From Planctomycetaceae bacterium (GTDB lineage: Bacteria > Planctomycetota > Phycisphaerae > Phycisphaerales > SM1A02), in NCBI GenBank assembly GCA_021297795.1, contig JAJTGL010000011.1, positions 1-45,068 of the forward strand: DNA of 45,068 nt, read 5' to 3'. The position numbers and the translations under genes are program-made. Positions 16,988 to 35,156 of this stretch are shown piece after piece. Under the pieces are notes generated by a model that saw only the letters and a program-made list of their open reading frames with translations, made no database searches and was not told the DNA's origin. Every line of letters begins with the position of its first letter. The stretch's first letter is position 1.

Positions 16988-17032
16988 GCGCGCGGAAGGC
17001 GAACGCTTCTCGCACGGCGCGGTGCCTTCCCG

Positions 17033-17038
17033 TATCCT
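17033..17038 (+). promoter_or_regulatory. -10-like TATCCT six bases before the 17045 start (leaderless signature)
   Basis: TATCCT-GCGCAC-ATG. No Shine-Dalgarno site. It would start the run of small genes leading to deoC. Confidence 0.5.
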
Positions 17039-17044
17039 GCGCAC

Positions 17045-17257
17045 ATGCGTCTTCTCCGTAACGTCCCGCGACAGCTCTCCGTCACCGCCGCGCTCGTCCT
17101 CTGCAGCGCGGCCTTCGGTCAAACCCAGCCACCGCCGGAACCGGTCGGCCGCCCTGAGCCCGGTCCGGTCGTCGGCTACATCGTGATGTTCATCCTCTTC
17201 GGCATCATCGTGGCCATCTCGCTGATGCCGTCGAAGCGCGCGCACACCGATCTCTAG
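17045..17257 (+). CDS. Small protein with signal peptide and one membrane span
   Basis: A 70-residue protein: signal peptide (about 1-25, ending 'CSAAFGQ'), a short Pro-rich linker 'TQPPPEPVGRPEPGP', one hydrophobic helix 'VVGYIVMFILFGIIVAISLM' (about 42-61) and a basic tail 'PSKRAHTDL'. A cleaved signal followed by a membrane span with positive residues after it gives an N-out, C-in protein of only some 45 mature residues. No function is recognisable. It begins a chain of three very small exported or membrane-bound proteins ahead of deoC, spaced 26, 30 and 42 bases apart. Confidence 0.65.
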   Translation: MRLLRNVPRQLSVTAALVLCSAAFGQTQPPPEPVGRPEPGPVVGYIVMFILFGIIVAISLMPSKRAHTDL

Positions 17258-17283
17258 TCCGAAGCATCCTCCGATCGAACGAC

Positions 17284-17586
17284 ATGCAGAAGCGACTCCG
17301 ACCCCTCCCGATCCTCGTCGCCGCGAACATCGCGGCGCTGGGGTTCCTCGCGGCGGTCGAGCTCTCGGGTTCGGCGGTCGCGCAGGCCTTCCGCACGCGT
17401 GGAACCTACAGCGCCGCCTCCGGTCGCATCCCCGGCACCGAAACGCATGCGGTGTACGTGGTCGACGAGACCACGCAGGAAGTGATCGCGGTCCAGTGGG
17501 ATCCGCGTTCGAGACAGCTCGTGGGCCTCGGCTACCGAAACATGGCCGCCGATGCGGCCGACGGCGCACGCCCGCGCTCCAACTGA
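17284..17586 (+). CDS. Small exported protein, possible relative of the next one
   Basis: A 100-residue protein with a hydrophobic N-terminus (about 10-34, 'PILVAANIAALGFLAAVELSGSAVAQ') that may be a signal peptide or an anchor. The rest contains 'HAVYVVDETTQEVIAVQWD', a beta-hairpin-like pattern with hydrophobic strand, turn 'DETTQE' and second strand. The following protein has the same plan ('ESLFILDNRTETIYVYGIE'). No catalytic motif or named family is recognised. Similar short proteins with a 'YVxDxxTxxxxVY' strand pair are common in Phycisphaerae, of unknown role. The stop is followed at once by a duplicated 13-base sequence before the next gene. Confidence 0.6.
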   Translation: MQKRLRPLPILVAANIAALGFLAAVELSGSAVAQAFRTRGTYSAASGRIPGTETHAVYVVDETTQEVIAVQWDPRSRQLVGLGYRNMAADAADGARPRSN

Positions 17587-17615
17587 ATCGCACCGACCGC
17601 ACGAATCGCACCGAC
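17585..17615. repeat. Duplicated 13-base sequence between two small genes
   Basis: GAATCGCACCGAC occurs at 17585-17597 and 17603-17615. The first copy includes the last two bases of the upstream TGA stop codon and the second ends one base before the next ATG. Confidence 0.85.
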
Positions 17616-17616
17616 G

Positions 17617-17934
17617 ATGAAGACCACGCACGCCATCCTCGCCACGAGCGCCTTCGCGATCACCGCGCTCGCCATCGTCGAGGCCGGTCGGCTTGGCCCG
17701 AGCGCCTCGGCAACCCCCATCGGCGCGCTCTCGACGGGTGCGAACGGCGTGACGATGCTCACCGCCTCGACCGGCCAGGGCCCCGACGAGGCACCGTACG
17801 AGTCGCTCTTCATCCTCGACAACCGCACCGAGACGATCTACGTCTACGGGATCGAGAGCCCGACCGACCGTCGGCTCGTGCTCCGCTCGTCGGCAAGCCT
17901 CCCGGCGCTGTTCCGCGCCGCGCGCGGTGGCTGA
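17617..17934 (+). CDS. Small exported protein, possible relative of the previous one
   Basis: A 105-residue protein with a hydrophobic N-terminus (about 6-24, 'AILATSAFAITALAIVEAG') acting as signal peptide or anchor. Its mature part holds a strand-turn-strand pattern 'SLFILDNRTETIYVYGIE' like the gene before it, and ends 'ASLPALFRAARGG'. No function is recognised. It is 30 bases after the previous gene and 42 before deoC, in the same direction, so probably on the same transcript. Confidence 0.6.
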   Translation: MKTTHAILATSAFAITALAIVEAGRLGPSASATPIGALSTGANGVTMLTASTGQGPDEAPYESLFILDNRTETIYVYGIESPTDRRLVLRSSASLPALFRAARGG

Positions 17935-17976
17935 CGCCGACGAGATTCACGCGCAGAAACCCGCGCAGACCCACCG

Positions 17977-18939
17977 ATGGACGGCTTCCGCCCGATTCCC
18001 CTCCCCGCGCGCCGTCCGGTCGACACGATCATGGCGATGCGGCGCGCCGACAGCTTCGGCAAGCGCTCGATCAAGACGACGAGCAAGGAGTACGCGCTCC
18101 GGCTTGCGATCTCGATGACCGACCTCACCACGCTCGAAGGAAAGGACTCGCCCGAGAAGGTGCGCGCGCTCTGCCGGAAGGCGATCGCGCCCGCGCCGCT
18201 CCTCGACCGGGCGCTCGTCGCCGCAGGCGGCGCGCCGATCCCGAGCGTGGCGGCGGTGTGCGTCTACCCGAACCTCGTCGCGGTGGCGCGCGAGGCGCTC
18301 GCAGGCAGCGGTGTGCACATCGCGTCGGTCGCGACGGGCTTTCCGAGCGGCCAGTTCCCGCTCGAGGTCCGGCTCGACGACGTCCGCCGCGCGGTCGGCG
18401 AGGGCGCCGACGAGATCGACATGGTCATCAGCCGCGGTGCCTTCCTCGCGGGCGAGTACGCGCTGGTCGCCGACGAGATCGCGCGCGTGCGCGAGGCGTG
18501 CGGAGCGGCCCACCTCAAGATCATCCTCGAGACAGGCGAGCTCGAGACCCTCGACGCCGTGCGCCACGCGAGCGACCTCGCGATCCAGGCCGCGCTCTCG
18601 ACCGGCCCCGCGAAGGACGGCGAGGTCTTCATCAAGACATCGACCGGCAAGGTCACCCCGGCGGCCACGATGCCGGTCGTCCTCGTCATGCTCGAGGCGA
18701 TCCGCGACGCCCATCGCGAGACCGGCGTCCGCATCGGAATGAAGCCCGCCGGCGGCATCCGGGCCGCGAAGTCGGCGATCGCGCAGCTGGTGATGGTGCA
18801 CGAGACCCTCGGCCCCGATTGGCTCGCACCCCACCTCTTCCGCTTCGGCGCGTCGACCCTGCTCAACGACCTGCTCCGGCAGCTCGCCCGGCTGCGGCGC
18901 GGCGGATACGCCGCCCGTGACGACTTCGCGGAGGCGTGA
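17977..18939 (+). CDS. deoC: Deoxyribose-phosphate aldolase
   Basis: A 320-residue class I aldolase that reversibly splits 2-deoxyribose-5-phosphate into glyceraldehyde-3-phosphate and acetaldehyde, the last step of deoxynucleoside breakdown. Family features are complete: 'GADEIDMVI' (Asp148), the Schiff-base lysine Lys220 in 'FIKTSTGK' and 'MKPAGGIR' (Lys256). It has the extra N-terminal 50 residues of the longer DeoC type (about 320 residues, as in animals and actinobacteria; the E. coli form is 259), and a basic C-terminal tail. The cytosolic acetaldehyde product could feed the aldehyde dehydrogenase pair at 24160-26498. The start is the first ATG in frame; no strong ribosome site is seen. 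Confidence 0.95.
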   Translation: MDGFRPIPLPARRPVDTIMAMRRADSFGKRSIKTTSKEYALRLAISMTDLTTLEGKDSPEKVRALCRKAIAPAPLLDRALVAAGGAPIPSVAAVCVYPNLVAVAREALAGSGVHIASVATGFPSGQFPLEVRLDDVRRAVGEGADEIDMVISRGAFLAGEYALVADEIARVREACGAAHLKIILETGELETLDAVRHASDLAIQAALSTGPAKDGEVFIKTSTGKVTPAATMPVVLVMLEAIRDAHRETGVRIGMKPAGGIRAAKSAIAQLVMVHETLGPDWLAPHLFRFGASTLLNDLLRQLARLRRGGYAARDDFAEA

Positions 18940-18998
18940 GCCGCGGGGTAAGCCGCCCGCATGGCTCGATTCGTCATGATCCGATAGCATTCTTTCTT

Positions 18999-19016
18999 GA
19001 AGTCGACGGCGACTTC
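18999..19016. promoter_or_regulatory. 7-bp inverted repeat downstream of deoC
   Basis: GAAGTCG (18999-19005), ACGG, CGACTTC (19010-19016), preceded by a pyrimidine-rich low-GC run (18990-18998). It sits in the 238-base gap between deoC and the pseudokinase gene and could be an operator or a 3'-end hairpin; a T-run does not follow it. Confidence 0.35.
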
Positions 19017-19177
19017 GCCGCGATCGCGCGCGGCCACGCGACCGGACCTCGGTTGGATCGCGCGGATTTCCCGAAGAAGCGTGCGGTCCCGACGCGGTGC
19101 GCCGTATGACGACCTCGAGAGAGCAAGGCTTCTTCGCGAGGCTTCCCTGCGAGGCTTCCTTGTCAAGCCCGATCGCC

Positions 19178-20932
19178 ATGCGAAGACAGAAAGACGCTCC
19201 TTCCAATCTGCCGCCGGGCTTCCGCGTGCTCGCCGAGCTCGGTCGAGGCACTTACGGAACGATCCTCCATGTCGAGGAGGAGACCGGACAGGCCTACGTG
19301 CTGAAGCACGTGCGGATCGACGCATCGCTCGACCGCCGCACGGCGGGCCTGGTCGAGGGTCGCGTGCGCGCGGAATTTGCGGTCGGAAAGCTCGCCGCAC
19401 ATCGCGTCCTGCGTCGCTATCACGAACATCGCACCGCGACATCGGACGACGACTCGATCGATCACTTCTTGCTCATGGAGGCAATCGACGCGCCTCCGCC
19501 CACGCGCACGCCCTTTCCTCCGATCGAGACCGTACAGATCCTCCGGCACGTCGCGAACGCGGTGGTCTCGCTCCACGCGCACGGATTCGTCCACGCCGGC
19601 CTGACGCCGCGCGCCCTCTACCTCACCACGCTCGGACGGCCGCGGCTCGGCGGACTCGCCGACGTGGCGCGGATCGGCGAGGTCAAGCCGCTCCGCGTCG
19701 GCGTCACCGGCTACATCGCGCCCGAGATCGCGCTGGGAACGGCGGCGTCCACGCGCACGGCGTCGTTTCTCTTCGCGACGCTCGCGTACGTGATGCTTGT
19801 CAATCGCTTTCCCCGCGCGGTGCGACTCGTCGGCGCGGCGTCGAGCCAGATCACCGAGGGAATGATCGGTCCCGACGTGCCCCTCCACGAACTGGTGCCC
19901 GAGGCACCGGTCGCACTCGGCGAGTTCGTGCGACGCGCGTTGGTCGCCGACCCGACGGCACGACCGGAGCTGAACCAGCTGCTCGACGAGCTCAAGTGGC
20001 ATGACGCGGACCAGCGCGCACGCACCCACGCGCCTGATGCCCCGCGCGCGGAGCAGCCACTTGCCGTCGTCCAGCGGTGCTCGCGAAACCCGCGCCTGCC
20101 AGAGCTGCGCTCGGACTACGAGTCGCACCGAGTGACACTCGCCGGACACGCCTTCGGCTACCGCGTCGGGCGCTGGCTCGGTGACGGCGCGTGGAGCCGC
20201 ATCTATCTCGTCGAGCGACCCTCGACCGGCGAGGCCTTCGCGATGAAGCACGTCATCGCATCGCCGACCCACGGGCGCCGCCCCCACGACCGGCTGCTCC
20301 ACGAGTGGACGCTGTGCGGCAAGCTGTCGCACCCGAGCCTCCGCCGGCTCCATGCGCTCGAGCATGTCGGCGAGGACGCGAAGTCCTCGGCGATCCTCGG
20401 GCTCGTCATGGAACTGCTCGATGCCACACCGCTTGAGGAGAAGGCGATGCCGCGCGACCTCCTCCGGTCGACGCTCCGTGCGGTCGCCGAGGCGCTCGCG
20501 TACATGCACGGACAGGGACTGGTGCACACCAACCTCAAACCACGGGCGATCTTCCTGAGCGCACTCGGGCGGACGAAGCTCGCCAGCACGGGTCAATCCG
20601 TCCCGATCGGAACCCCGCTCGAGCGTTCGCGGATCGTGCCGGGCTTCGCAGCCCGGGAGGTGGTCTCAGGCCGGCCGGTGACCGGGGCGAGCGATGTCTT
20701 CGCGTTCGCCGCCACCGCGTTCAACCTCACGACGGGGCTCATCGCCCCGGAAGCCGCGGTGGTCGAGACGAAGGGCGAGCCAGTCCCGGCCCGATACATC
20801 GGCCCGGAGGAGCCGCTCGACCACTTCGAGCCGATGCTCGGGGCGGAGTTCGGTCGCCTGGCGAAGCGGGCACTTTGCTCGAAACCCGGGGAACGACCCT
20901 CGATGGACGAACTCGCTCAGGCCCTCCGGTGA
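19178..20932 (+). CDS. Tandem pseudokinase: two degenerate Ser/Thr-kinase-like domains
   Basis: A 584-residue protein of two kinase-fold domains. Domain 1 (about 15-275) keeps a Gly-loop 'LGRGTYGT' and Lys43 ('VLKHV'), but the HRDxKxxN loop reads 'HAGLTPRA' (139-146) and DFG is 'GLA'. Domain 2 (about 328-584) has 'LGDGAWSRIYLVE', Lys357, 'HTNLKPRA' (450-457) in place of HRDLKPxN, and 'STGQS' in place of DFG. Both lack the catalytic Asp, the Mg-binding Asp and the loop Asn, so phosphotransfer is unlikely while nucleotide binding remains possible. APE-like and 'DPTARPEL'/'PGERPSMDEL' motifs survive. Domain 2 closely resembles the kinase encoded next (GDGAWSR, KHVIA, GQSV.IGT). No signal peptide or membrane span. 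Start chosen by analogy with that kinase's short N-terminus; in-frame GTG 19097 and ATG 19106 are alternatives, none with a ribosome site. Confidence 0.85.
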   Translation: MRRQKDAPSNLPPGFRVLAELGRGTYGTILHVEEETGQAYVLKHVRIDASLDRRTAGLVEGRVRAEFAVGKLAAHRVLRRYHEHRTATSDDDSIDHFLLMEAIDAPPPTRTPFPPIETVQILRHVANAVVSLHAHGFVHAGLTPRALYLTTLGRPRLGGLADVARIGEVKPLRVGVTGYIAPEIALGTAASTRTASFLFATLAYVMLVNRFPRAVRLVGAASSQITEGMIGPDVPLHELVPEAPVALGEFVRRALVADPTARPELNQLLDELKWHDADQRARTHAPDAPRAEQPLAVVQRCSRNPRLPELRSDYESHRVTLAGHAFGYRVGRWLGDGAWSRIYLVERPSTGEAFAMKHVIASPTHGRRPHDRLLHEWTLCGKLSHPSLRRLHALEHVGEDAKSSAILGLVMELLDATPLEEKAMPRDLLRSTLRAVAEALAYMHGQGLVHTNLKPRAIFLSALGRTKLASTGQSVPIGTPLERSRIVPGFAAREVVSGRPVTGASDVFAFAATAFNLTTGLIAPEAAVVETKGEPVPARYIGPEEPLDHFEPMLGAEFGRLAKRALCSKPGERPSMDELAQALR

Positions 20933-21389
20933 GTCCGCGAGGGAACCCGCGAACGAACCCTCACTGCAGGCGTCGCCCCAGACACGCAACCAATCCATGA
21001 CACGAGTCGCGAGCGCAGAATCGGGTTGCAACATGCCGGTTTCGCGCGCGTTGACGATCGATCCCGGACGAAGCGGCGTGAGTTGCCTCGGAGGCCCGGG
21101 GCAATTTCGTTCCGATTTGCCTCTTTGGCCGACACTCGTCCCAAGAAGGCGTCCGAATCGTTATCTTTCCAAACTCATTTCCCGCGGGTCCTCGTCGCCC
21201 GCTCGGCCCTCCCGGGCCATGCCAACTGGTGTTGAGTTCAATGTCGGCCCGACGTTCCTTTGACCTCATGCAAGCATCGCCGCGCGTCATCCTCTCGATG
21301 ACCCGCGCGGCGCTTCGACCCGCGACGGAACGTCGGGGGCCGAGGTTCACGCGTGCCCTGACGGAGCGTCTCCGCGAGAGGAGCCGCGC
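20933..21389. other. 457-base gap upstream of the kinase gene; no gene seen
   Basis: No credible frame. 21100-21190 has noticeably more A/T than its surroundings, as expected for a promoter region, but I could not fix -10 and -35 boxes. A long hairpin lies at 21278-21312 and the ribosome site GAGAGGAG at 21374-21381. Confidence 0.4.
21278..21312. promoter_or_regulatory. 14-bp hairpin in the leader region of the kinase gene
   Basis: CGCCGCGCG (21278-21286) pairs with CGCGCGGCG (21304-21312), and TCATC (21287-21291) with GATGA (21297-21301), with a five-base loop and a CC bulge. It is 77 bases before the start at 21390. No T-run follows, so it is more likely a leader structure or operator than an intrinsic terminator. 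Confidence 0.4.
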
Positions 21390-22277
21390 ATGAGCGAAGT
21401 CCCTCCGGCACAACGCAAGGTCGCGAAGGAACTCTTCGGCTACCGCGTGCGCAAGGTCATCGGTGATGGCGCTTGGAGCCGCGTGTACGAGGTCGAGAAC
21501 ACCAAGACCCACACCGCCTACGCGCTCAAGCACGTCATCGCCGATGGCGAGAAGCAGGAGCGGTACCTCGACCAGTTGCGCGCGGAATGGCGCGTCGGCA
21601 AGGCGCTGAACCACCCGGCGATCCGCAAGCTCGTCGCGCTCGAGGGCGAGGGGCTGCTGAACAAGCTCTTCCGCACGAAGTCGACCGAGCTCGGACTGGT
21701 GATGGAGCTCATCGACGCGCCGCCGCTCAGCGAGCACGTCAACCGCGGCACGCGCCCGTCGATGCCCGAGTGCCTCCGCATCTTCCTCGAGGCGGCGAGC
21801 GGGCTTCTTCACATGCATTCGAAGGGCTTCGTCCACGCGGACATGAAGCCGCTCAACATCCTCTACGACCCGGACCGGCGGATGACGAAGCTCATCGATC
21901 TCGGCCAGTCGGTCGACATCGGAACGCAGAAGATCCGGCTGCAGGGTTCGGCCGGGTACATCGCGCCCGAGCAGGCGACCGAGGTGAAGGACAAGCTGTA
22001 CGCACCCGTCACCGAGAAGACCGACGTCTTCAACTTCGGCGCCACGATGTACTCGATCCTGGCACGCGGGAAGCTCGCGCCGCAGAGCCAGCACACGAGT
22101 GACAAGCGGGTCCGCATCGAGCCCGAGCATCTCGGGCCGCGCGAGCTCATGTCGCTCGGCGACCCCGAGATCAAGCGCGACCTCTCCGACCTCGTGTCGA
22201 AGTGCCTCGTCTTCGAGGGCGCCGGGCGCGTACCGATGGAAAAGGTCGTGCGCACGCTGCAGTCGCTGCAGCCCTGA
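21390..22277 (+). CDS. Serine/threonine protein kinase (Hanks type, soluble)
   Basis: A 295-residue single-domain kinase without sensor or membrane span. Motifs are near complete: Gly-loop 'IGDGAWSRVYEVE' (24-36), Lys47 ('YALKHV'), catalytic loop 'HADMKPLN' (149-156, Asp151, Lys153, Asn156; the Arg of HRD is Ala, which marks kinases not controlled through an activation-loop phosphate), metal Asp170 in 'DLG' for DFG, 'APE' at 192-194 and 'KTDVFNFGATMYSIL'. It should phosphorylate Ser/Thr on cytoplasmic partners. GAGAGGAG is a good ribosome site nine bases upstream. The upstream gene encodes two pseudokinase domains related to it, a likely regulator or scaffold. It converges with the ROK gene, and both stop codons lie in one hairpin. 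Confidence 0.9.
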   Translation: MSEVPPAQRKVAKELFGYRVRKVIGDGAWSRVYEVENTKTHTAYALKHVIADGEKQERYLDQLRAEWRVGKALNHPAIRKLVALEGEGLLNKLFRTKSTELGLVMELIDAPPLSEHVNRGTRPSMPECLRIFLEAASGLLHMHSKGFVHADMKPLNILYDPDRRMTKLIDLGQSVDIGTQKIRLQGSAGYIAPEQATEVKDKLYAPVTEKTDVFNFGATMYSILARGKLAPQSQHTSDKRVRIEPEHLGPRELMSLGDPEIKRDLSDLVSKCLVFEGAGRVPMEKVVRTLQSLQP

Positions 22278-22291
22278 CGCCGCGCCGTCAG
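22274..22291. terminator. Hairpin formed by the two convergent stop codons
   Basis: CTGACG (22274-22279), six-base loop, CGTCAG (22286-22291). The plus-strand TGA is 22275-22277 and the minus-strand TGA complement is 22288-22290, so the two stops pair with each other. It could serve both genes but has no T-run. Confidence 0.4.
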
Positions 22292-23004
22292 AGTTCCGTC
22301 GCGGAACCCGCCCACTCGTCGGTCCACACGGCGTATCCGCCGAGGAACGCGTTGGAGTTCGCGCCCAGAATCGCTCCCGCGGGCACCTCCTTGAGTGCCT
22401 TCGAGTTGCCGCCGCCAAGGACAACCACGTCGGGAAGAAGCGCCGCGCGCAGGAGCTTCACGCACTCGGCGACATGGCCGCGCCACTTGCGCGTCCCGCA
22501 GCGTTCGCGGCCACGCACGCCGACGAAGTCCTCGAACGAGCGACCCTTCTTGTACGGGAGGTGCGCGAGCTCCATCGGGAGCACCTGGCGCCCGACCACC
22601 ATCGCGCTGCCGAGACCCGTGCCGAGCCCGAGGAAGAGCATCTTCTCGTTGCCGAGGCCGGCGGCAACATGGCTTCCGATCGCCTGCATCGCGGCGTCGT
22701 TGAGGATCTTCACGGGCACTCCGAACGCCGCGCGATAGTCGAAGTCCTTCCAGCCCGGCCCGAGGTTGACCGGATCCATCAGTGGTCGTCCGGCGCGGAT
22801 CGGCGTCGGCAGCCCGATCGTGATCGCATCGACCTTCTCGCCGGCCAGGAGCTCAGGCAGGTCCTTCGCCAGCTGCTCCGGCGTGTAGCCGGGGCCCGAG
22901 GGCGAGGCGCGCTTGTCGGCCCAGTGCGCGCAGCGTGCCTTGGCGTTGGTGCCGCCGATGTCGAGGGTGCAGATGATGCGGGGTGTGCGGGTGCCTGCGG
23001 ACAT
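22288..23004 (-). CDS. ROK-family sugar kinase (glucokinase / polyphosphate glucokinase type)
   Basis: A 238-residue cytoplasmic protein of the ASKHA fold. 'LDIGGTNAKA' (14-23) is the phosphate-1 loop, 'GLPTPIRAGRPLMDPVNLGPGW' follows as in polyphosphate-glucokinase-like ROK proteins, the catalytic Asp is 103 in 'ILNDAAMQAIG', and 'LGLGTGLGSA' is the phosphate-2 loop. The usual ROK zinc finger (CxCGxxGCxE) is absent, fitting this short branch. It probably phosphorylates glucose or a related hexose with ATP or polyphosphate; the donor cannot be read from the sequence. A strong terminator of the upstream SOUL gene ends 15 bases before this start, so it must have its own promoter close to or inside that terminator. 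Confidence 0.85.
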   Translation of the reverse strand: MSAGTRTPRIICTLDIGGTNAKARCAHWADKRASPSGPGYTPEQLAKDLPELLAGEKVDAITIGLPTPIRAGRPLMDPVNLGPGWKDFDYRAAFGVPVKILNDAAMQAIGSHVAAGLGNEKMLFLGLGTGLGSAMVVGRQVLPMELAHLPYKKGRSFEDFVGVRGRERCGTRKWRGHVAECVKLLRAALLPDVVVLGGGNSKALKEVPAGAILGANSNAFLGGYAVWTDEWAGSATEL

Positions 23005-33623: not shown

Positions 33624-34421
33624 TCACGCACGTTCTTCTGACGCGCGTCCGTCGCGCGCGATGCACGCGTGCAGCAGCTCGGGAAACTCTGCGAGCGTGT
33701 CGACGATCACGTCGGGCGCAGGATCGAGATCCTCGACCGGAAGACCGTGGTTGTAGCCACCGCGCACGACGATGCTCGGCATCGATGCCGCGCGGGCTGC
33801 ACCCACGTCGTTGGCACTGTCCCCGACCATCCACGCATGACGGGCATCGAGCCGACGCAGCGCCTCGGCGAGCGGCGCGGGATCGGGCTTGCGCGAGGCG
33901 AGCGTATCGCCGCCGATCACGACCGAGACGAACGGCCTCCATCCGAGCGCGTCGACGATGCGCTCGGTGGGTGCGACGGGCTTGTTGGTGACGATCGCGA
34001 CACCGAGACCAAGTCGCTGCACCGCGGCAAGCGAGTCGCGCGCGCCGGCGAGCGGCACGGTGTGGTCGACGCAGACTTCCTGATAGATCGCGCGGAAGCG
34101 CGGCATCGCGGCGTCGGCGGCGGCGTGACGCTCGCGGGCATCGGCGAGTCCGGCAAAGCCCTCGAAGCGACCGGCCATCGCGCGCTCGACGAGCATGCGC
34201 GCGCCGTTGCCGACCCAGGTGGCGACCTGCGCGCGTGAACACTGCGGAAGCCCGAGCTCCGCGAGCAGCACGCGCACGGCCGCATGGATGTCCTCGACCG
34301 AGTCGATCAACGTCCCATCGAGGTCGAAGAGGACCGCCTCGGGCTTCGGCGACGCGCCAAGGCGCGCAAGCGCGTCCTTCCGCGAGATCGCGGGGCGAAG
34401 GCCGGCGGCGGGGTCGATCAA
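33624..34421 (-). CDS. gph: HAD phosphatase, phosphoglycolate phosphatase type
   Basis: A 265-residue cytoplasmic HAD hydrolase. Motif I 'VLFDLDGTLID' (nucleophile Asp33, general acid Asp35), a helical cap (about 45-110), motif II in 'AIVTNKP' (Thr), motif III Lys in 'SRKPDPAPL' and motif IV 'MVGDSANDVGAARAA' are complete. 'GGDTLASRKP' and 'GYNHG' are typical of Gph, which removes phosphate from 2-phosphoglycolate formed in DNA repair or photorespiration-like reactions; related sugar-phosphate substrates cannot be excluded. A 20-residue N-terminal extension precedes motif I. The convergent adaptor gene ends nine bases away. A duplicated 12-base sequence lies upstream of the start. Confidence 0.9.
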   Translation of the reverse strand: MIDPAAGLRPAISRKDALARLGASPKPEAVLFDLDGTLIDSVEDIHAAVRVLLAELGLPQCSRAQVATWVGNGARMLVERAMAGRFEGFAGLADARERHAAADAAMPRFRAIYQEVCVDHTVPLAGARDSLAAVQRLGLGVAIVTNKPVAPTERIVDALGWRPFVSVVIGGDTLASRKPDPAPLAEALRRLDARHAWMVGDSANDVGAARAASMPSIVVRGGYNHGLPVEDLDPAPDVIVDTLAEFPELLHACIARDGRASEERA

Positions 34422-34532: not shown

Positions 34533-35156
34533 TCACTCCGCGATGGCGGCGACGATGCGGTTCCACTCGGCGTCGTTGGCGAAGCTCGCGGGGCCGCCGC
34601 GATCCTGCTGACGCACCACGCGCGAGGGTTCGATCCGGTAATGCCGCGCAAGGTCGGTCACCACCGACGCGAGGCTCTGCACCTGTGCATCGGTGAGCGG
34701 GCGGCGCGAGGTGTCGCCGATCACGCAGATCTCGATCGCGTCCGGCGTCGTCGCTCCGTGCTGCTGCGCGTTCCAGCGCGGTCCGATCAGGACGGCACCG
34801 TTCTGCTCGCCGTTGCCGTTGCCGACGATGAAGTGGTAGCCGAGCGACGGCTCACCCATCGATGCATGCTGGCGCGTGAGATCCTCGAGGTTCCCGACCA
34901 GCGAGCCCGACTCATGGATCACGATCTGGGTCCAGCGCGGAGTCGAGCGTTCGGCGATGTTGACCATCGGTCCGGTCGCTGCACCACCTCGCCAGCCGTC
35001 GGCCATCACGAGCGCGCCACCGGCGAAGGTCATCGCACCGATGAAGACCGTCCACACGATGCCCGTGCGCTTGGGGTGGACCTGCCGCTTCTTGCCCGAC
35101 TTTGCGGAGCTGGAGGCGGAACGACCGTTCGACTTCGTGGATGGCTTCCTTGCCAA
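34533..35156 (-). CDS. Membrane-anchored N-acetylmuramoyl-L-alanine amidase-like protein with incomplete zinc site
   Basis: A 207-residue protein: Lys/Ser-rich cytoplasmic N-terminus (1-30), one membrane helix (about 33-52) and an amidase_2/PGRP-like domain outside. The domain has 'WTQIVIHESGS' (His81, first zinc ligand), 'LGYHFIVGNGNGEQNGAVLIGPRW', 'QQHGATTPDAIEICVIGD' and 'PLTDAQVQSLASVVTDLARHYRIEPSRV'. The late 'GHxD...CPG/DPG' site, which gives the other two ligands, reads 'VRQQDRGGPASFAND', so a His and a Cys/Asp are missing. It may bind peptidoglycan without cutting it. Start TTG 35156 with AGAGG eight bases upstream is the only in-frame start supported by a ribosome site before the basic N-terminus; this is tentative. 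Confidence 0.65.
   Translation of the reverse strand: MARKPSTKSNGRSASSSAKSGKKRQVHPKRTGIVWTVFIGAMTFAGGALVMADGWRGGAATGPMVNIAERSTPRWTQIVIHESGSLVGNLEDLTRQHASMGEPSLGYHFIVGNGNGEQNGAVLIGPRWNAQQHGATTPDAIEICVIGDTSRRPLTDAQVQSLASVVTDLARHYRIEPSRVVRQQDRGGPASFANDAEWNRIVAAIAE

Follow-up and report, generated by a model that had tools for sequence, protein, structure and literature searches.

A tandem of two predicted catalytically dead kinase domains encoded beside a motif-intact relative in a planctomycete genus

We analyzed a 45,068-nucleotide stretch of DNA from a Planctomycetaceae bacterium (assembly GCA_021297795.1, contig JAJTGL010000011.1; hereafter the window) and found a gene for a protein that, judged from its sequence, joins two catalytically dead kinase domains in tandem. 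This gene lies on the forward strand at 19178..20932 and encodes 584 amino acids from the ATG at 19178; the open reading frame (ORF) is also open from a GTG at 19097 (19097-20932, forward strand), which would give 611 amino acids. Relatives of the tandem are present in five other genomes of the genus. Next to it, on the same strand, lies a gene for a single-domain, motif-intact Ser/Thr kinase (21390..22277, 295 amino acids from an ATG). Below, G000 denotes the genome of the window, other G labels denote related genomes, and L labels denote fetched loci.

Catalytic motifs and predicted fold of the tandem

The original prediction, made from the letters of the window, had described two kinase-fold domains in the long protein, with HAG..TPRA or HTN..KPRA for HRD..KPxN and GLA or STG for DFG, and alignment, Pfam and AlphaFold2 all bore this out. 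The first domain (D1, 19217..20011, forward strand) retains the Gly-loop, Lys43 and Glu66 and reads HAGLTPRA and GLAD, the second (D2, 20153..20929, forward strand) reads HTNLKPRA and STGQ, and the neighbouring kinase reads HADMKPLN and DLGQ, the motifs earlier ascribed to it. We then compared 41 single kinases with the 12 tandem domains of six genomes in one motif table, in which the G007 kinase was left unscored (a run of N cuts the gene). The HRD Asp, the KPxN Asn and the DFG Asp were absent from all 12 tandem domains, whereas K47, E66, H149, D151, K153, N156, D170, G172 and E194 were retained in 41 of 41 single kinases; the L099 kinase, which stands outside the table, also has HADMKPNN and DLGQ. 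The two Gly-loop glycines, the VAIK Lys, the alphaC Glu and the HRD His were kept in every tandem domain.

The substitutions follow a pattern in each half. In all six D2 sequences Asn replaces Asp151 and Lys153 is retained, the KPxN Asn has become Ala or Ser, the DFG Asp has become Gly or Ser, and GDGAWSR, Lys357, Glu376 and Lys454 are invariant. D1 has Gly (four sequences), Ser (one) or Ala (one) at the Asp151 position and carries an invariant Asp (D162, 19661-19663; 6/6) three places after the lost DFG Asp, within GLAD or GxGD, at a position where 40 of the 41 single kinases have Gln. Since six genomes agree, the missing residues are not a matter of chance, and sequencing error as their cause was rejected. 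No relative of the long gene had an intact HRD or DFG Asp (0/6), and the pseudokinase assignment stands.

The predicted structure leads to the same assignment. Matches to the Pfam Pkinase family covered two separate stretches of the long protein, with an E of 1.2e-33 for the protein as a whole, and one stretch of the short protein (E 7e-36). With the six-sequence alignment as input, AlphaFold2 predicted two kinase folds, the five models having mean predicted local distance difference test (pLDDT) values of 77.5, 75.8, 74.1, 44.4 and 39.8, and the best model a predicted template modelling score of 0.67. In that model, residues 278-325 fall below a pLDDT of 50; they belong to the interdomain linker (20012..20152, forward strand), in which P294, A296, Q299, P305, P308 and R311 are invariant in the six sequences. 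In both domains the predicted beta8 strand stops two residues short of where the DFG Asp would stand (157/159 and 468/470), in agreement with the motif alignment. The best 50 Foldseek matches of the model were protein kinases, with PknB, PknA, Aurora A and AMPK among them. The long protein combines a kinase fold (Pfam, AlphaFold and Foldseek) with loss of the HRD Asp and the DFG Asp; in general, a bacterial Ser/Thr pseudokinase is marked by that fold and the loss of one or more of these two residues and the beta3 Lys.

Origin and selection

The earlier claim that the pseudokinase domains and the kinase have a common origin was upheld by phylogeny. In a 35-row tree built with the more careful method, D1 (support 100/100), D2 (97/95) and D1+D2 (100/98) each formed a clade, and the D1+D2 clade was nested within the clade of kinases from deoC-linked loci (100/100). 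This tree contains long-branch rows, for which the tool prints a caution. A quick 57-row tree gave the same three clades; it held a faulty outgroup row (L003, taken from the wrong strand, branch length 10, no kinase motif), and the origin rests on the 35-row tree. The alternative that D2 was copied from the genus kinase at a later time, independently of D1, was rejected when that grouping was forced (p-AU 0.013, subject to the long-branch caution). The simplest reading of these trees is one duplication of the kinase of this locus, loss of activity, and then internal duplication and fusion; separate losses in the two halves would be less simple than a single loss before the internal duplication. 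In the window genome, D1 and D2 are 30% identical, D1 and the kinase 28%, and D2 and the kinase 36%. The strings GDGAWSR, KHVIA and GQSVxIGT, which had been offered as common to all, are indeed shared by D2 and the kinase, but D1 has only KHV.

When G000 is compared with G005, the proportions of differing sites at the first, second and third codon positions are 0.16, 0.11 and 0.54 in the tandem (579 codons) and 0.16, 0.07 and 0.45 in the kinase (291 codons). This excess of third-position change indicates that the tandem is maintained under purifying selection. In all 10 genome pairs compared, conservation rose from D1 to D2 and again to the kinase.

Distribution and gene order

The kinase is far more widespread than the tandem. 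Among the window genome and 60 relatives, ranging from genus to order, 60 of 61 gave a kinase match at E <= 1e-20, and in a phylum sample the query with a kinase of the same family matched 13 of 199 genomes at E <= 1e-40, all 13 belonging to the class of the window. A full-length tandem was present in 6 of 16 genus genomes. A profile of the six tandem rows matched 8 of 181 family genomes at E <= 1e-60, namely the six and two more of the same genus (G004 and G015), in which the match was to single kinases. In a class sample of 198 genomes, only the window genome itself matched at E <= 1e-42. No full-length relative of the tandem was therefore found outside the genus among the 181 family genomes and the 198 sampled from the class. 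The records of the five other carriers include a pond bin and an 'ErkenSummer' bin, and from the record titles we take the carriers to come from freshwater. Contigs whose content matches the genus genomes G010 and G001 also stand under the record titles Limnohabitans sp. and Ca. Kuenenia stuttgartiensis, and these titles look wrong.

Wherever the contig continues, the order deoC, tandem, kinase is kept (5/5); in G009, deoC is followed by a tandem that is cut off by the end of the contig. The kinase adjoins the tandem wherever that side can be read, and the original prediction stands on this point; the tandem itself is confined to a minority of the genus. The deoC-type aldolase gene (17977..18939, forward strand) is the upstream neighbour in 16 of 16 genus genomes, and a convergent ROK-family gene (22288..23004, reverse strand) is the usual downstream neighbour in the genus. 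Between tandem and kinase there are 457 (G000), 332 (G005), 369 (G002), 409 (G010) and 248 (G001) base pairs (bp), and between deoC and tandem 238, 157, 124, 58 and 1316 bp in the same order, sizes that depend on ORF starts which are not certain. The extra space in G001 is filled by a third kinase ORF (L077 4149-5051), diverged and fast-evolving but motif-intact, which overlaps the start of the tandem by 4 bases. This overlap suggests that a live kinase and the pseudokinase are translationally coupled. No Rfam family matched at the gathering threshold in 17000-23000, where an RNA element 5' of the kinase was looked for, and a scan of 18900-22400 for sigma-70 promoters and intrinsic terminators found none, although such a scan is uninformative for this phylum.

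In the ten genomes of the genus without a tandem, deoC is likewise followed by the kinase, the G007 kinase with its internal run of N included. G015 has two consecutive single kinases at this locus (L083 6649-7566 and 8000-8923), as if kinase genes were readily duplicated there. Another of the ten, G011, probably lost the tandem recently. Its kinase is 92% identical to that of G005 and 91% to that of G002, and we read the absence as a loss because, in the trees of both the kinase and deoC, G011 sits among genomes that carry the tandem. The 549 bp between its deoC and kinase ORFs match G002 at 89% over 272 columns after deoC and at 76% over 249 columns before the kinase, with about 137 bases in the middle matching neither flank; an assembly error is the less favoured explanation. 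The deoC tree, from which the sequence of gain and loss events was to be read, was mostly unresolved, and tandem presence needs four changes on it. Palindromic GGCACGTGCC units are repeated 3' of deoC in G002 (L078 5662-5829) and G011 (L082 6908-7074), and near the site of the missing tandem they are possibly a small mobile or recombinogenic repeat.

The intact single kinase

The short gene carries the Lys, Glu, HRD Asp, Asn and DFG Asp of an active Hanks-type kinase (K47, E66, HAD151, K153, N156 and D170LG), a residue set from which activity may be expected. Hydropathy gave no transmembrane (TM) segment in the 295-residue protein, and Pfam gave no PASTA domain. Its best matches by sequence among solved structures were PknA and PknB, and its best NCBIfam match was the PASTA-kinase model at 87.2 bits against a cut-off of 450. 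A PASTA kinase identity (PknB/Stk1) was therefore rejected, the score lying below the cut-off and the protein having neither TM segment nor PASTA repeats.

A role in defence was rejected as well. The MAD6 kinase of the MADS system scored 103.8 bits with the long protein and 74.7 bits with the short one, against an NCBIfam cut-off of 460. PADLOC and NCBIfam listed MAD6, PD-T4-6, PglW and others as generic kinase matches, in NCBIfam below the cut-offs; PADLOC reported many kinase models at once, which fits a shared kinase fold. No defence genes were found among the 17 window ORFs scanned with Pfam (some of them spurious), which comprised the two kinase genes and, besides these, enzymes, efflux proteins and an amidase.

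Comparison with known pseudokinases

A 2025 review lists the bacterial pseudokinase families ActPs1-3, GLW, CP1, DYD and DLHK (PMC12599244), which share with the tandem a Hanks-type fold without one or more of the Lys, HRD Asp and DFG Asp. By the defining features given in the available text of that review, the tandem domains do not fit any of them. ActPs1 has all three canonical residues substituted, the Lys included, and the tandem keeps its Lys in 12/12 domains. ActPs2 changes the beta3 Lys to Arg and the HRD Asp to Asn and deletes the DFG; D2 has the same Asp to Asn change, but the Lys is retained and the DFG Asp is substituted rather than deleted. ActPs3, the MviN type, has completely degraded catalytic motifs and an activation-loop deletion, whereas the activation-loop columns of the tandem, which also keeps its Lys, are filled in the alignment. 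DYD has Arg for the beta3 Lys and lacks the alphaC Glu, both retained in 12/12 tandem domains, and DLHK retains the HRD Asp, lost in all 12. GLW has that motif in the place of HRD, where the tandem has H-x-G/S/A or H-x-N. CP1 is physically linked to a COG3899 domain; the long protein matched only kinase-like Pfam families, and its model is filled by two kinase folds and the linker (all families from PMC12599244).

In the JAK kinases, TYK2 among them, a pseudokinase and a live kinase stand in one chain. In the tandem, by contrast, both fused domains are dead and the live kinase is a separate protein. TYK2 is described as a case of a pseudokinase that controls a related kinase (PMC12599244), which is the kind of pairing that the original prediction took as its model. 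A close bacterial likeness is the pseudokinase domain of MviN (MurJ), which works with PknB and FhaA in the control of peptidoglycan in Mycobacterium (PMC12599244): here too a bacterial pseudokinase is partnered with a PknB-like kinase. However, MviN is a membrane protein with a single pseudokinase domain, which has lost the VAIK Lys, and ActPs3 has an activation-loop deletion, whereas the tandem has two domains in one chain without a TM segment, keeps the Lys, and is encoded beside a kinase of its own clade. The words 'tandem' and 'planctomycet' do not occur in the main text of the review (PMC12599244), and a study of kinases across the planctomycete phylum counted as functional, in its available text, only domains with the K-D-D residues (PMC11032199). 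The open full text that we searched on pseudokinases in Planctomycetes, Phycisphaera, tandem kinases and bacteria, a scope outside which most subscription papers fall, showed no description of such a tandem among the papers listed.

Possible functions of the tandem

The original prediction is partly supported: the tandem pseudokinase and its common descent with the kinase hold, and the suggested allosteric control or scaffold role has the standing of a proposal. We propose that the tandem is a non-catalytic partner that may regulate the adjacent kinase by binding, a proposal we hold with moderate confidence. The tandem would have arisen by duplication of the locus kinase, internal duplication and fusion and would have been retained as a non-catalytic protein; it would bind the adjacent kinase through the kinase-kinase contacts typical of such folds, and this binding would tune the activity of the kinase. 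D2 has no metal ligands, but its Gly-loop, VAIK Lys, alphaC Glu and catalytic-loop Lys are invariant, and it may be the half that responds to a ligand or nucleotide; docking may fall to D1, which has diverged more. The contact, the effect on activity, the binding of nucleotide and the roles of the two halves are steps that we infer. In favour of this proposal, we counted the loss of catalytic residues in 12/12 tandem domains against 41/41 single kinases that keep them, the D1+D2 clade, the purifying selection, the invariant GDGAWSR, Lys and Glu of D2, the kinase beside the tandem in 5/5 genomes, the 4-base overlap in G001 and the two predicted folds.

Several observations weigh on the other side. 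In ten of the 16 genus genomes the kinase occurs and the tandem does not (the G007 kinase being interrupted by N), so the kinase does not need the tandem, which is accessory. The aldolase gene is nearer to the tandem than the kinase is in 4/5 genomes, and with gaps of 248-457 bp the tandem and the kinase need not form one operon. Adjacency is itself weak evidence, because the gene arose by local duplication in a locus that is generally syntenic in the genus, and a gene born in this way adjoins its source without any functional tie. The conservation order of D1, D2 and kinase also fits relaxed constraint.

The main rival, which we regard as possible but doubtful, is that the tandem is a substrate or scaffold, phosphorylated by the kinase (for example in linker residues 279-325) and then recruiting a further protein, in the manner of MviN with PknB and FhaA. 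This MviN precedent (PMC12599244) speaks for it, as do the conserved positions in the low-confidence linker, but no linker Ser or Thr is invariant in the six sequences (none is listed between 276 and 321). We prefer regulation by binding over a pure substrate or scaffold role.

It is less probable still that the tandem has no functional link to the kinase, being a neofunctionalised binding protein or serving the nearby aldolase and aldehyde dehydrogenase genes, and adjoins the kinase only by birthplace. Its descent from the kinase of this locus, the conserved synteny, its absence from ten genus genomes and the nearer aldolase gene would all be expected on this account. Against it stand the motif-intact kinase of G001 whose ORF overlaps the tandem by 4 bases and the general knowledge that kinase-fold pseudoenzymes commonly act on kinase relatives. 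We consider it very unlikely that the tandem gained another chemistry in the kinase fold, such as AMPylation or glutamylation, as SelO and SidJ did: the VAIK Lys and alphaC Glu are retained throughout and D1 has its invariant Asp three past the DFG-Asp position, but all 12 domains lack both the KPxN Asn and the DFG Asp, no Pfam match of the SelO or SidJ type was found at E <= 0.001, and E. coli SelO (DYG) and SidJ (DLG) keep the Asp that the tandem lost, according to the table of the review (PMC12599244).

An amidase-fold partner of the kinase family

The original prediction remarked that nothing in the sequence shows a sensor domain, a remark that needs qualifying: at other loci the kinase usually has an amidase-fold protein with a membrane anchor as its neighbour. 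We obtained wide loci from 40 of the 60 relatives; of the kinase loci among them, 25 (L092-L116) fall outside the deoC-linked clade, and at these we counted adjacency directly. In 23 of these, a gene of the Amidase_2 fold lies upstream of the kinase on the same strand at a distance of 21-387 bp; in L103 and L111 no such gene was found upstream of the kinase. The window holds a distant copy, a TM-anchored protein of the amidase_2/peptidoglycan recognition protein (PGRP) fold (34533..35156, reverse strand, start uncertain), about 12 kb from the kinase and kin to the gene directly upstream of the kinase elsewhere. It adjoins a gene for a HAD phosphatase (33624..34421, reverse strand), in a slot that holds a second kinase in G031. 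That genome, from another genus of the family, has one deoC-linked and one amidase-linked kinase; with both kinases there and the HAD phosphatase in the amidase slot of the window, the window kinase looks like a paralogue at a new locus. The amidase-fold gene beside the kinase at 23 of 25 other loci points to a peptidoglycan-linked origin.

All 24 amidase-fold copies, the distant one of the window included, have a hydrophobic segment within the first 110 residues (trimmed). At the positions that we presume to be zinc ligands, the first His is present in 23/24 copies and the second in 16/24, and the third position has Asp in 3/24 and Ser in 17/24; the window copy has H, Q and G. The putative zinc site of these partners is thus decayed. 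Compared with solved structures, the L095 copy gave 11 weak matches (E 2e-5 to 0.002) to amidases and to PGRP-SD, PGRP-LC, PGRP-SA and PGRP-3, and in the displayed alignments the amidases have CPG opposite its SPG. Several PGRPs of this kind are non-catalytic receptors. It is possible that the amidase-fold protein and the kinase form a receptor for cell-wall fragments with its kinase. A mycobacterial parallel is the pairing of PknB with its substrate CwlM, an amidase homologue in which, according to one of two studies cited in the available text of the source, two catalytic residues are absent (PMC6180346).

A wider picture, which we put forward only tentatively and think rather unlikely as a whole, would be a receptor-kinase-pseudokinase lineage: a class-wide cytoplasmic Hanks kinase would work with a membrane-anchored, zinc-decayed PGRP/amidase-fold reporter of cell-wall fragments, and in one genus a kinase copy at a metabolic locus would have gained a fused pair of dead copies of itself that brakes it allosterically or serves as its adaptor, D2 being a switch that responds to nucleotide.

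Significance

The pairing of kinases with pseudokinases is well known in animals and plants and hardly explored in bacteria. Here, close kin, dead and live, are encoded side by side, and nature supplies the controls: kinase-only relatives, one probable recent loss, and one genome in which two motif-intact kinases flank the dead tandem. The question of whether a dead kinase steers a live one in bacteria thereby becomes directly testable, and the tandem and the kinase, both without a membrane segment, are suited to two-protein tests. The frequent pairing of the kinase family with a PGRP-like membrane protein offers a concrete guess at the input signal.

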